A DNA stretch of 64,000 bases, taken from contig PNJK01000007.1 of NCBI GenBank assembly GCA_013821825.1, forward strand, positions 31,456-95,455. Direction: 5' to 3'. The notes under the pieces were generated by a model, which did no database searches, was not told the DNA's origin, and was given only the letters and a program-made list of their open reading frames with translations. A program made the translations under genes and the position numbers. Positions 30,663 to 35,682 of the stretch are shown here, piece after piece. The DNA is from Rhodobacter sp. (GTDB lineage: Bacteria > Pseudomonadota > Alphaproteobacteria > Rhodobacterales > Rhodobacteraceae). The number at the start of each line of letters is the position of its first letter. Position 1 is the stretch's first letter.

Positions 30663-30866
30663 TCAGGGACACCAGAAGGGCTTTGCGCATTCAGCCTTGG
30701 CCTCATCAGCCGACAGGCCGATATCGCGCAGGATATGGGCGTCAAGGCGCGCCAGGGTCTGGCGGTCGCGGCGGCGGGCCAGGGCCTCGGCCGCGGCAGA
30801 AATCAGGCGCGTCAGGAGGCGGTGCCGGGTGCGGAGGCGAAGGGTCTTGGTCTCGCTGCGGGTCAT
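30663..30866 (-). CDS. DUF1127 small protein
   Basis: A 67-residue basic protein with the DUF1127 (YjiS-like) core: LARLDAHILRDIGLSADEAKAECAKPFW near the C-terminus. Such small arginine-rich proteins in alphaproteobacteria can bind RNA or influence phosphate, carbon and motility traits. ATG 30866 is preceded by AGGAGG; the ORF track start adds ten residues upstream. It is divergent from the MocR regulator gene, an arrangement I believe is common in Rhodobacteraceae and which suggests control by it. Confidence 0.88.
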   Translation of the reverse strand: MTRSETKTLRLRTRHRLLTRLISAAAEALARRRDRQTLARLDAHILRDIGLSADEAKAECAKPFWCP

Positions 30867-30882
30867 CGCAGCCTCCTGTGAT

Positions 30883-30970
30883 TTGTATTGATACAATAAT
30901 CGATATGACGTAGGGACAATCTAACTATCTCACGCAATGAGTCGCCAGAGGATTATTGTGACTGATACAA
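30883..30970. promoter_or_regulatory. Repeated TGATACAA boxes between DUF1127 and mocR-like gene
   Basis: TTGTATTGATACAA (30883-30896, a 14-base inverted repeat) and TTGTGACTGATACAA (30956-30970) share the half-site TGATACAA, 74 bases apart in direct orientation. The first lies just upstream of the DUF1127 start and the second overlaps the probable start codon of the regulator. MocR regulators often bind such repeated sites; binding here is inferred. Confidence 0.5.
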
Positions 30971-32361
30971 GTTGGGCGCCTGATCTGAGTCAATTTCCCG
31001 GACCGAAGTATCTGGGCCTGTCCCGGGCCCTGCGCGAAGCGATCCGGGAGGGCGAATTGCCGCCGAACTCGCAGCTTCCTACGGTTCGGGATCTGGCGTG
31101 GCGGCTGCATCTGACGCCAGGAACGGTGGCGCGGGCCTATCAACTGGCGACGCAGGAAGGGCTATTGGCGGCCACGGTCGGGCGCGGGACATTTGTGGCG
31201 GCGCAATCGCCGCGACTGGGTCCGACGCAGGCATTGTATACTGAACGGATCACGGGTGGGGCGACCGGGCTGGTCGACCTGCGCCCGCCACAAGTGCCCG
31301 AGGTCGGGCAGGCAGAAGCGTTCCGCGCGGCCCTGCTGGAGATGGCGGGGCAGACCGGGGCCGGCTGGCTGGACTATACCAGCCAAAGGGGCGAGGCGGC
31401 GCTGCGGGCCGAGATCGTGACCTGGATGGGCGACCGCATTCTGGGACCGATCGGAGCCGAGGATGTGGCGCTGACCCATGGCGGGCAGAACGCGATCGGG
31501 CTGATCTTCGATTGCTGCCTTCGGGGTGAACGTCCGGCAGTGCTGATCGAGGAACTGGCCTATCCCGGTTTTCGCTATGCCGCGCGGGCGGCGCGGGCGG
31601 AAGTGGTGCCGATCGAGATCGACGAGGAGGGCGCCGTGCCCGAGGCGCTGGAGGCCGCATGCCGCCGCCACGGCGCGCAGGTGCTGTGCCTGACGACCGA
31701 GGCGCAGAACCCCACGACGGGTCGGATGCCGGTGAAACGTCGGCAGGAGATCGCCGATATCGCCAGGGCTTATGACCTGCAGGTGCTGGAAGATGACTGT
31801 TATTCGGTTGCTGAAACCGACATCCCCAGTTTGCGTGCCTTGGCGCCGGAACGGGTCTGGCTTGTCGGTTCGGTGTCCAAGACCATCTCGGCGGCGCTGC
31901 GCTTTGGCTATTTGATCTGTCCGGCGGGCATGGGCGAAGCGGGGCGGCTGACCGCGCAGCACGGGTTCTTCGCGCTGTCGCGTCCGGTCGCTGACCTGAT
32001 GCTGCATCTGTTCAGGTCGGGTGCGGCCGCAGATATCAAGGGACGGGTTCAGGCGGAGTTTGCCGAGCGTTTGCAAAGCCTTGTCAATCTTCTGGGCGCA
32101 TATGACCTGAGCTGGCAAGCCGGGGTGCCCTTTGTCTGGCTGCGGATGCCCTTGGGGTGGCGGGCCTCGACCTTCGTGCGCATGGCCGAGGCACGGGGCG
32201 TGCTGGTCCGGTCGGCGGACGAATACGCGCTGGTGCATGGCCGCGCGCCGAATGCAGTGCGGATCGCGATTGCCGGCAACCTGTCGCGTGACGGGTTCGA
32301 GGCGGCGATGCGGGTGCTGGCCGATCTGCTGGCCCGGCCGCCCTCGGACCTGTCGGTCTGA
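30958..32361 (+). CDS. MocR-family transcription regulator (GntR wHTH plus aminotransferase domain)
   Basis: A regulator with an N-terminal GntR winged helix (about 15-80; LPTVRDLAWRLHLTPGTVARAYQLATQEGLL) and a class-I aminotransferase-like domain (about 100-460). The PLP lysine is in VGSVSKTISAALRFGYL. Like GabR and PdxR it should sense an amine, amino acid or vitamer bound through PLP. The ORF track starts at ATG 30937; GTG 30958 has AGAGGA five bases upstream and gives 467 residues, so I prefer it. It is divergent from DUF1127 and followed by a small gene and a polyamine-type ABC transporter, possible targets. Confidence 0.88.
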   Translation: MTDTSWAPDLSQFPGPKYLGLSRALREAIREGELPPNSQLPTVRDLAWRLHLTPGTVARAYQLATQEGLLAATVGRGTFVAAQSPRLGPTQALYTERITGGATGLVDLRPPQVPEVGQAEAFRAALLEMAGQTGAGWLDYTSQRGEAALRAEIVTWMGDRILGPIGAEDVALTHGGQNAIGLIFDCCLRGERPAVLIEELAYPGFRYAARAARAEVVPIEIDEEGAVPEALEAACRRHGAQVLCLTTEAQNPTTGRMPVKRRQEIADIARAYDLQVLEDDCYSVAETDIPSLRALAPERVWLVGSVSKTISAALRFGYLICPAGMGEAGRLTAQHGFFALSRPVADLMLHLFRSGAAADIKGRVQAEFAERLQSLVNLLGAYDLSWQAGVPFVWLRMPLGWRASTFVRMAEARGVLVRSADEYALVHGRAPNAVRIAIAGNLSRDGFEAAMRVLADLLARPPSDLSV

Positions 32362-32497: not shown

Positions 32498-32758
32498 ATG
32501 GGACTGCAATACACCTTTCACGCGCCGCATGGCGGCGCGGATTTTCTTGGCTGGCGCAAGACGCGTGCCGGTTCCACTGAAATCGTCTATGATGACGGGG
32601 TGACCCGGCGGATGGTCTGGCGCGTCGCGTCGAATGACCCGTCAGAGGCGCGGATTTCCGAGGCTCTGCGGGTCGCCGTGCGGTCCTTGCGCGTGGTTCC
32701 GACGCTTTATGATGAGCTGAAGAAGCGGGCAATCGCCATCGAGCGCGTCGCGGGCTAA
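32498..32758 (+). CDS. Small soluble protein of unknown function
   Basis: An 86-residue protein (MGLQYTFHAPHGGADFLGWRKTRAG...). It has no signal or membrane segment and no motif I know; the middle (STEIVYDDGVTRRMVWRVASN) looks beta-stranded and the end helical. ATG 32498 follows AGAGAGCCCGAAA. It lies between the MocR gene (about 136 bases) and the ABC permease (about 155 bases), on the same strand. Confidence 0.5.
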   Translation: MGLQYTFHAPHGGADFLGWRKTRAGSTEIVYDDGVTRRMVWRVASNDPSEARISEALRVAVRSLRVVPTLYDELKKRAIAIERVAG

Positions 32759-32912: not shown

Positions 32913-33785
32913 ATGGCGCAATCGCCAAACTCCGAGGCCAGGGCCGGCCTGTCGCTGGTCAGCCCGACCGCGCTCTATTCAATCCTCCTGCTGGCTGCCC
33001 CCCTGGCGACCGTGCTGATTTACTCGGTGCTGACCGATGGACAGAGCCGGATCGAATGGACCTTCACCTTGGCAAACTATGTCGAGGTGTGGACCGGCAA
33101 GGTCTATCAGGCGATCATGCTGCGGTCCCTGACCGTGTCGATGCTGGTGACGCTGGTCACTGTGGTCATCGCCTTTCCCATCGCCTATTTCGTCAGCTTC
33201 CACGTGACCCCATCGCGCAAATCGCTGTGGCTGTTCCTGATCACGATCCCGTTCTGGACCAGCTATCTGATCCGGGTGTTCCTGTGGAAGGTCATCCTTG
33301 GCTATAACGGCGTGGTGAACTCGGGCCTTCTGGCCGTGGGGATCATCGACGAGCCGTTGCAGTGGATCAACTACAACGTCGGTGCGCTGGTGATGACGCT
33401 GGCCCATGCCTACGCGCCGTTCGCGATCCTGCCGATCTTCGTGGCTCTGGAAAAGATCGACCGCAGCCTGCTGGAGGCCGGGCAGGACCTTGGGGAATCA
33501 AAGCTGCGGACCTTCTGGCGCGTCACGCTGCCGCTGGCGATGCCGGGGGTGATTGCCGCGACACTGATCGTCTTCATCCCGACGATCGGTGACTATGTGA
33601 CGCCCGACCTGATCGGCGGCGGCAAGCTGCCGATGATTGCCAACATGATCGAAGTGAAGATGCTGAAGCAGAATGACAAGGCCATCGGATCGGCCATTGC
33701 CGTCAGCGCCATGCTGATCGTGGCGATCATCAGCCTGATCTTCCTGTTCATGAACCGAAGGTTCCTGCGGGGGAATGCGGGATGA
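32913..33785 (+). CDS. Spermidine/putrescine-type ABC permease, PotB-like
   Basis: One of two inner-membrane subunits of a polyamine-type importer. The 290-residue protein has six helices and the BPD signature EAGQDLGESKLRTFWRVTLPLAMPGV (the EAA loop that contacts the ATPase). ATG 32913 follows AGAGGGGGA; the ORF track start 32784 is too early. It overlaps the next permease by 4 bases (ATGA). The three-gene set lacks a periplasmic binding protein. Confidence 0.9.
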   Translation: MAQSPNSEARAGLSLVSPTALYSILLLAAPLATVLIYSVLTDGQSRIEWTFTLANYVEVWTGKVYQAIMLRSLTVSMLVTLVTVVIAFPIAYFVSFHVTPSRKSLWLFLITIPFWTSYLIRVFLWKVILGYNGVVNSGLLAVGIIDEPLQWINYNVGALVMTLAHAYAPFAILPIFVALEKIDRSLLEAGQDLGESKLRTFWRVTLPLAMPGVIAATLIVFIPTIGDYVTPDLIGGGKLPMIANMIEVKMLKQNDKAIGSAIAVSAMLIVAIISLIFLFMNRRFLRGNAG

Positions 33786-34591
33786 ACAAGGCGACGGGGT
33801 TGCGCACCTACGCGGTTATCTACCTTGTCTTCCTTTATGCGCCGATCATCCTGTTGCCGATGTTCGCCTTCAACAACTCGAAGGTCATCGCCTTTCCGCT
33901 GTCCGGCTTCACGGTGGAATGGTTCGGGCAGATGTGGGACGACGCCCAGCTGTTCCGGTCGCTGCAGAACTCGATGATCGTGTCGGTGACGACGGCAATC
34001 CTGGCGACGGCCTTGGGCGTCTTCGCGGCGCGGGCGACGACGCGCTACCGCTTTCCGGCCAAGGCGGGGATCATGGGCCTGATCATGCTGCCCCTCGTCC
34101 TGCCCGAGATGATCGTGGCGATGTCGCTGCTGGTGGTCTTGCTGGCCATTGGGGTGCCGCTGTCGATCTTCACCATCATCCTTGGCCATGTGCTGATCAC
34201 CACGCCCTTTGCGGTGGCGATCCTGTCCTCGGCCTTCCAGTCGCTGGACCGCAGCCTGGAAGAAGCCTCGTATGACCTCGGTGAGACGGCGCTCTCGACC
34301 TTTCGGCTGATCGTCTTGCCGCTGGTGATGCCAGGGATCATTTCGTCGCTGCTGATCTGTTTCACGATCAGCCTGGACGAATTCATCATCGCCTACTTCC
34401 TGGGCGGCTCCGAGACCCCGTTGTCGGCCTATATCTACGGCCAGTTCCGGTTCCCGGCGCGGGTGCCGGCGATGCTGGCCCTGGGCACGATCCTGGTCGC
34501 GGTGTCGATCATCCTGCTTGCTATCGCTGAATATTTCCGCCGCCGCGGCATCGCAAAAACCGGTGGCAAGGATTCCGGAGGCTTCCTGTGA
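33782..34591 (+). CDS. Spermidine/putrescine-type ABC permease, PotC-like
   Basis: The second permease of the importer, 269 residues, six helices. The EAA loop reads EEASYDLGETALSTFRLIVLPLVMPGI, and DEFIIAYFLGGSETPLSAYIYGQFR is typical of PotC. It starts inside the stop codon of the first permease and ends in a GTGA overlap with the ATPase, so all three are translationally coupled. Substrate (polyamine or related amine) is inferred from family. Confidence 0.9.
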   Translation: MNKATGLRTYAVIYLVFLYAPIILLPMFAFNNSKVIAFPLSGFTVEWFGQMWDDAQLFRSLQNSMIVSVTTAILATALGVFAARATTRYRFPAKAGIMGLIMLPLVLPEMIVAMSLLVVLLAIGVPLSIFTIILGHVLITTPFAVAILSSAFQSLDRSLEEASYDLGETALSTFRLIVLPLVMPGIISSLLICFTISLDEFIIAYFLGGSETPLSAYIYGQFRFPARVPAMLALGTILVAVSIILLAIAEYFRRRGIAKTGGKDSGGFL

Positions 34592-35682
34592 CGTCTGACC
34601 GCCCCACGATGATCGAGTTTCGCGACGTCCATAAGTATTATGGCGACTATCATGCACTGCGGGGGATAAATGGCACGATCCGCGCGGGCGAGTTCTTTTC
34701 GCTGCTGGGACCGTCGGGCTGTGGCAAGACCACGCTGCTGCGCACCATAGCCGGGTTCGAGGATATTTCCTCGGGCGCGGTGCTGATCGACGGGAAATCG
34801 ATGGCCAACGTGCCGGCGAACGTGCGACCGACGAACATGGTGTTCCAAAGCTATGCGATCTTCCCGCATATGTCGGTGGCCGAGAATGTGGGCTTTGGCT
34901 TGCGCAAGGATCCGCGGTCGAAGCCCGAGAAGGCCAGGGCCGTCGAGGAAGCGCTGGAGATGGTGGGCCTGAAGGGCTTTGGCGTCCGGGCGGCACATGC
35001 GCTGTCAGGCGGCCAGCGGCAGCGGGTGGCCCTGGCGCGGGCGCTGATCCTGAAGCCGAAGGTGTTGCTGCTGGATGAACCTCTCAGCGCGCTCGACAAG
35101 AAGATGCGCGAGCGTATGCAGATCGAGTTGATCAAGCTGCAGCGCCAGGTCGGGATCACTTTCATTCTGGTCACGCACGATCAGGAAGAAGCCTTGGTCA
35201 TGTCCGACCGGATCGCAGTGATGTTCGACGGCGAGATCATGCAGCTGGACGATCCCGAAACGCTGTACCGGCGGCCGAATTCGAAGATGGTGGCGGATTT
35301 CATCGGGACGATGAACTTCATCCCCGCCACGGTGCTGTCGGAAGCCGGCGACAAGGTTGAGGTCGAGGCCAAGGGGCTTGGCCGTGTGGCGCTGGACATC
35401 TCGGCCGCGCCGCCCGCCAAAGGGGAAAGCCCGGTGGTCGGCCTGCGACCCGAGACGCTGACGCTGCTTTACGATGACCAGAAGGCGCCCGAACGCGAGA
35501 CCGAGGGACTGGTCGACGAGGTCATCTACTTCGGGGACATGACCTACTACGACGTCTATCTGGGCGGGACCGATGTCGAGGTTCGCTTGTCGATGCGCAA
35601 CGTGCCGGGGCGCCCGGTGCTGGATGTCGGCGCCAAGGTACGCGTCGCGTGGAGCCCTTCGGCGCTGGTCCTGTTCCGCTGA
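34588..35682 (+). CDS. Spermidine/putrescine-type ABC ATPase, PotA-like
   Basis: The 364-residue ATPase of the importer. Walker A GPSGCGKTTLL, signature LSGGQRQRVALARAL, Walker B VLLLDEPLSALD and VTHDQEEA are all intact. The C-terminal part (about 285-360) is the TOBE domain, with VVGLRPETLTLL. GTG 34588 overlaps the stop of the PotC-like gene. It ends the operon and is convergent with the TetR gene. Confidence 0.93.
   Translation: MTSDRPTMIEFRDVHKYYGDYHALRGINGTIRAGEFFSLLGPSGCGKTTLLRTIAGFEDISSGAVLIDGKSMANVPANVRPTNMVFQSYAIFPHMSVAENVGFGLRKDPRSKPEKARAVEEALEMVGLKGFGVRAAHALSGGQRQRVALARALILKPKVLLLDEPLSALDKKMRERMQIELIKLQRQVGITFILVTHDQEEALVMSDRIAVMFDGEIMQLDDPETLYRRPNSKMVADFIGTMNFIPATVLSEAGDKVEVEAKGLGRVALDISAAPPAKGESPVVGLRPETLTLLYDDQKAPERETEGLVDEVIYFGDMTYYDVYLGGTDVEVRLSMRNVPGRPVLDVGAKVRVAWSPSALVLFR

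Follow-up and report, generated by a model that had tools for sequence, protein, structure and literature searches.

The question raised by this locus is whether a regulator of the vitamin-B6-type (MocR) in a Tabrizicola-like bacterium controls the small DUF1127 protein gene from which it diverges, and through which DNA sites it might do so. Small DUF1127 proteins have effects on RNA turnover, on the uptake of phosphate and on stress. In the window, by which we mean the whole 64-kb stretch of DNA that was analysed, TGATACAA occurs exactly twice, at positions 30889-30896 and 30963-30970, where 0.23 copies are expected. The first copy is one half of the inverted repeat TTGTATTGATACAA (TTGTAT-TG-ATACAA, 30883-30896), the 6-bp arms of which are perfect, and the 14-base inverted repeat that the first-pass annotation had described near DUF1127 is therefore real. 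A second copy of the half-site, which the same annotation had placed at the regulator start, is also present, but it does not lie upstream of the regulator: the box to which it belongs covers the start codon. The two extended elements are referred to here as box A and box B, and their positions are listed in Table 1 together with the other features of the locus. The end of box A is separated from the start codon (ATG) of DUF1127 by 15 bases, just upstream of the AGGAGG Shine-Dalgarno sequence of that gene. The TGATACAA halves of the two boxes are 74 bp apart, which amounts to about seven helical turns. The outer halves of box B are separated by one base more than those of box A, and the boxes may for this reason differ in affinity or role.

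Table 1. Features of the mocR-DUF1127 region, with positions in the window and the basis of each assignment.
Feature	Position	Strand	Basis
Gene of the 67-aa DUF1127 small protein, divergent from mocR	30663..30866	-	Pfam PF06568
Box A, TTTGTATTGATACAAT (core inverted repeat 30883-30896)	30882..30897	.	Orthologue consensus [A/T]TTGTATTGAYACAAT
Candidate mocR core promoter: -35 TTGATA (30888-30893, in box A), 17-nt spacer, weak -10 TAGGGA (30911-30916)	30888..30916	+	Inference
Box B, ATTGTGACTGATACAA, mocR start codon inside	30955..30970	+	Orthologue comparison, start-codon evidence
mocR, GntR-type wHTH and aminotransferase-like domain	30958..32361	+	Pfam PF00392, PF00155; start-codon evidence

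In Markov-simulated intergenic regions, an inverted repeat with a second copy of its half arose in 0.025% of cases, and in about 1% when both the spacing and the choice of the repeated 8-mer were left free. Judged from the window alone, without relatives, the repeat pattern is thus suggestive but not decisive, and it is the comparative evidence that decides whether the boxes are real. The 4.0-Mb genome of this strain has a single exact copy of the 14-mer TTGTATNNATACAA; two further places match it with one mismatch, and the genes that adjoin these show no evident relation. A 9-nt inverted pair, ACAATAATC / GATTATTGT (30893-30901 and 30951-30959), was set aside as a candidate element because its box-A flank differs among relatives. 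An Rfam search found no RNA element.

To compare the boxes we used 88 orthologous loci from Rhodobacteraceae, 80 of which were scorable for the box layout; box A was scored as present when at least 12 of the 16 positions matched. Conservation of the motif in Rhodobacteraceae mocR-DUF1127 regions had been put forward as the check on this idea, with absence counting against it, and the boxes were present in nearly every locus. In 77 of the 80 scorable orthologues box A preceded box B by 70-77 bp, and the near-constant spacing extended to orthologues with about 40% identity. The TGATACAA halves had a start-to-start distance of 74 bp in 47 loci and of 72-77 bp in nearly all others. The consensus of box B in the orthologues is ATTGT-N4-GATACAA. 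Between the boxes, 35-36 bp upstream of box B, a third half-site (TGATACAAT) was found in 38 of 79 loci, compared to a mean of 0.3 and a maximum of 3 in shuffles, and part of the Tabrizicola-type clade has an inverted copy of it at -37. This middle site is degenerate in our window, where neither the direct nor the inverted copy is well preserved.

The mocR reading frame can be read from an ATG at 30937, which gives 474 aa, but the true start is most likely the GTG at 30958 within ATTGTGACTGATACAA. An in-frame ATG upstream of box B is absent in 41 of the 80 orthologues, and one relative (L067) reads ATG AGT CGC CAG AGC TGA ATT GTG, with a stop in frame ahead of the box. Moreover, box B is preceded by a conserved Shine-Dalgarno sequence of the CCAGAGG type. 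With the start at 30958, box B would span the mocR start codon, and MocR would be 7 residues shorter than the frame read from 30937. The coding part of box B also made it possible to distinguish conservation of the DNA from conservation of the protein. The Thr codon in the box is ACA in 79 of the 80 orthologues (ACG in the remaining one), whereas ACA makes up 7.6% of the Thr codons elsewhere in the same genes; similarly, the preceding Asp codon is GAT in 69 of 72 cases, as compared to 41.5% elsewhere. Since rare synonymous codons are retained inside the box, box B is kept as DNA and not as protein.

The motif is also largely restricted to this locus. In 150 Rhodobacteraceae genomes the 14-mer TTGTRTTGAYACAA occurred 46 times, 43 times adjoining this mocR, and it was present in 42 of the 65 genomes with this MocR versus 3 of the 85 genomes without it (Fisher p = 5e-17, kinship ignored). 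The three occurrences away from mocR are chance-like, with unrelated neighbours and no MocR. In its exact form the motif therefore points to essentially a single site in each genome; secondary sites of a more degenerate kind could exist elsewhere in the genomes. In one genome (G140:C7:12774 and 13133) we observed a second box copy, which lies 431 bp ahead of the mocR match, past the first box toward DUF1127.

These data bear on the idea that the boxes have no connection with MocR and are simply conserved elements of an ordinary promoter and translation start. It is true that box A includes a TTGAYA hexamer resembling a -35 element and that box B includes a start codon. However, the conserved stretch comprises 15-16 positions, which is more than a hexamer, the motif and the MocR gene tend to be found in the same genomes, rare synonymous codons are kept in box B on the 3' side of the start codon, and the third box carries the same half-site. 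We therefore regard this explanation as highly improbable. In the window, the TTGATA of box A is the only -35-like hexamer for mocR with a conserved TA at 17-nt spacing, and this TA is kept in about 63% of the weighted orthologues. A strict sigma-70 scan gave no clear promoter for either mocR or DUF1127, so that arguments from promoter overlap are weak, above all for DUF1127.

The regulator has the domain structure of its class. The N-terminal GntR wHTH domain matches PF00392 with 47.8 bits (cutoff 27) and the C-terminal fold-type-I aminotransferase-like domain matches PF00155 with 77.5 bits (cutoff 19.7); among PDB sequences, MocR matches aminotransferases and GabR. Alignment to aminotransferases identifies K315 as the Schiff-base lysine. 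This residue, D286, R322 and R442 are the same in all 76 orthologues compared, and N258 is found in 74 of the 76. By what is known of the fold, R442 is presumably the arginine that binds an alpha-carboxylate. The locus thus displays the traits of MocR/GabR regulators: a wHTH, an aminotransferase-like domain, the PLP-lysine residues and repeated half-sites at helical-turn spacing.

Given the observed conservation of the boxes as DNA, their near-exclusive site at the divergon, the DUF1127 partner and the PLP-site residues, we infer binding by MocR, the sign of regulation and control by a ligand. The boxes would be operators of the adjacent MocR that are dedicated to its own divergon, with autorepression likely, repression of DUF1127 likelier than activation, and an amino acid or amine as the ligand; as a whole, we consider this reading reasonably probable. 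PLP-bound MocR would bind both boxes and, in the many relatives that have a third half-site between them, this site as well. Because box A lies on the predicted mocR -35 element and upstream of the DUF1127 ribosome-binding site, and box B on the mocR start, occupancy would repress mocR, and for DUF1127 the geometry makes repression likelier than activation. An amino-acid or amine ligand could then form an external aldimine with PLP and alter DNA binding, and DUF1127 would be expressed when the ligand appears. The ATTGT/ACAAT core of the boxes agrees with the TGT-containing sites described as typical of MocR regulators (PMC5320631). The proposal in the first-pass annotation that MocR binds both boxes and controls itself as well as DUF1127 thus draws support from conservation and near-exclusive location, both read from sequence; our literature search found no published binding, expression or transcription-start results for this MocR group.

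The sign of regulation of DUF1127 could also be the opposite. In the classic MocR divergon arrangement the regulator represses itself yet activates its neighbour, and according to Suvorova and Rodionov (PMC5320631) a MocR gene is often transcribed divergently from a target under positive control. Box B, some 90 bp ahead of the start codon of DUF1127, would be at a possible activator position, but box A is the best-conserved element and ends 15 bases short of that codon, where a bound protein would be expected to interfere rather than assist. In addition, EnuR, which by profile is the nearest characterised relative, is a repressor (PMC8739950). We therefore consider activation of DUF1127 to be the less likely arrangement, though one to be taken seriously, and rate repression as about twice as probable.

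The divergent partner is conserved as well. The product of the gene in the window matches PF06568 with 33.9 bits (gathering cutoff 23.3), a DUF1127-like ORF was detected by tblastn near at least 83 of the 88 orthologous loci, and 37 of 38 divergent neighbours in a diverse sample match PF06568 at E <= 0.001. The genes downstream of mocR behave differently. PotB/PotC/PotA-like importer genes are located about 0.5 kb downstream of mocR on the same strand (32913-35682, +), which the first-pass annotation took as a hint at the ligand, and they adjoin this MocR in the majority of near-clade loci. Accordingly, MocR might sense a polyamine and co-regulate this PotABC-like importer. However, the importer and the 86-aa ORF that follows mocR occur only in the clade with a MocR identity of at least 57%, and neither was detected near orthologues with at most 47% identity (flanks mostly 0.5-1.5 kb, and 3 kb for L075 and L076), which nonetheless keep the boxes and DUF1127. 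A search of the strain's own genome at up to one mismatch found no site near the importer, and, since R442 is invariant, the ligand presumably carries an alpha-carboxylate, a group that polyamines lack. A polyamine-sensing MocR that controls the importer is thus very unlikely, and the hint at a polyamine is not supported.

Some further observations were made on these neighbours. Among the ORFs immediately around the importer there is no obvious gene for a substrate-binding protein. The 86-aa ORF (32498-32758, +; MGLQYTFHAPHGGADFLG...) has no Pfam or NCBIfam match and represents an unnamed small protein family; similar ORFs, with identities of up to about 90%, are present at 52 of the 88 loci. 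For 17 distant relatives (16-19 kb each), the genes found repeatedly nearby include rplM-rpsI, an enoyl-CoA hydratase, a TetR-type regulator, a PPK2-like kinase and MetA, these names being taken from sequence starts, and the window itself has similar genes. Clustering of the gene neighbours in these 17 relatives showed a stable chromosomal neighbourhood and no partner that would suggest a ligand.

A comparable arrangement recurs outside the Rhodobacteraceae. MocRs with 32-38% identity from other alphaproteobacterial families mostly have a divergent DUF1127 gene and a start codon inside ATTGTCACCATGACAAT. In a class-wide pattern search, ATTGTNNCCATGACAA was found in 36 of 289 genomes at 38 places, while a reversed control pattern had few matches. 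In 24 of the 30 loci read from this search the embedded ATG is the first codon of a MocR ORF, and a divergent DUF1127 gene was recognised at 18 of the 24. In these relatives the putative operator contains the mocR start codon and, apparently, in some loci the DUF1127 start codon too: at three loci (L178, L181 and L184; no systematic count) the latter seemingly lies in an operator-like box, TTGTATGGGTACAAT or ATTGGCCATGACAATT on the strand of the gene. Many of the mocR starts in the loci from other families (L189-L218) are an ATG in ATTGTCACCATGACAAT closely preceded by TTGACA-like and TA-rich hexamers, and the mocR mRNA may for this reason be leaderless there. More tentatively, we suggest that the arrangement is a module of long standing in the Alphaproteobacteria, with a MocR that acts as a PLP-based amino-acid sensor and would, through one operator cluster per genome, control a DUF1127 adaptor that acts on RNA or PhoR. 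If true, an amino metabolite would be linked directly to post-transcriptional or phosphate signalling.

It remains to be considered how this MocR relates to regulators that are already known. In principle it could be the ectoine regulator EnuR/EhuR/EutR, which would then control DUF1127 in addition. The published EutR consensus ATTGTnnnnnnACAAT, quoted in PMC8739950, is matched by box A in the orthologues and, at 9 of the 10 outer positions, by TTTGTATTGATACAAT in the window; EhuR is the best NCBIfam match of MocR; and Rhodobacterales MocRs with COG5457 are filed in the EutR group by Suvorova and Rodionov (PMC5320631). Earlier annotation probably placed this MocR group with the ectoine regulator. 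Nevertheless, MocR scores 277.1 bits against the EhuR profile NF052286, short of the cutoff of 480, whereas four eut-linked MocRs of the same family, encoded next to eutD, score 549-637 bits. In a quick maximum-likelihood tree the two groups form separate clades with supports of 98-99, the median identity between them is 26%, and the genomes G013, G026 and G115 carry both proteins. The strain's own genome has no eutD match near the cutoff (the best TIGR02993 match, E 6.8e-15, is far below it), and DUF1127 was not found in the eut loci that were fetched. Identity with the ectoine regulator thus seems extremely improbable. At two loci (L111 and L121) we observed sites fitting ATTGTnnnnnnACAAT on the 3' side of enuR, with inner spacers of the CATGC and CCTGC types as compared to ATTGAY in box A.

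As regards the link to DUF1127, the 2016 study by Suvorova and Rodionov (PMC5320631) states that most Rhodobacterales EutR regulons include COG5457, which is also frequent in other MocR regulons. Since the MocR-COG5457 (DUF1127) link in Rhodobacterales was thus predicted in 2016, and box A fits the EutR consensus, this link is not new. A literature search on MocR plus DUF1127 found nothing, and just one of the papers searched makes mention of COG5457. What is new here is the separation from EnuR, the layout with two to three boxes, the operator across the start codon, the near single-site specificity, the selection at the DNA level and the class-wide recurrence. A dedicated regulator with one operator cluster offers a handle, because the ligand of MocR would reveal the signal that calls for DUF1127.

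Among known systems, the Rhodobacterales 'EutR' regulons of PMC5320631 likewise combine a MocR, COG5457 (the DUF1127 / YjiS family) as a predicted target and a ATTGTnnnnnnACAAT-type site, but they are filed under the ectoine regulator; they may correspond to this MocR group. EnuR and EhuR, of Ruegeria pomeroyi and Sinorhizobium meliloti, are also MocRs with a PLP lysine and outer ATTGT...ACAAT half-sites; the present MocR differs from them in its clade, in the inner spacer sequence, in the residues at positions 209 and 286, and in lacking eut linkage. On the side of the target, CcaF1 binds RNA and other DUF1127 proteins bind PhoR (PMC12501420). CcaF1 and YjiS have the small Arg-rich DUF1127 domain in common with the product of the mocR-divergent gene, and the literature found describes no MocR control of either. 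GabR, PdxR and TauR (in part after PMC5320631) share with this system the wHTH and aminotransferase-like domains, the repeated operator half-sites and a divergent target. Their known targets are metabolic (GABA, vitamin B6 and taurine), whereas here, with no adjacent pathway, the target would be a small DUF1127 protein.
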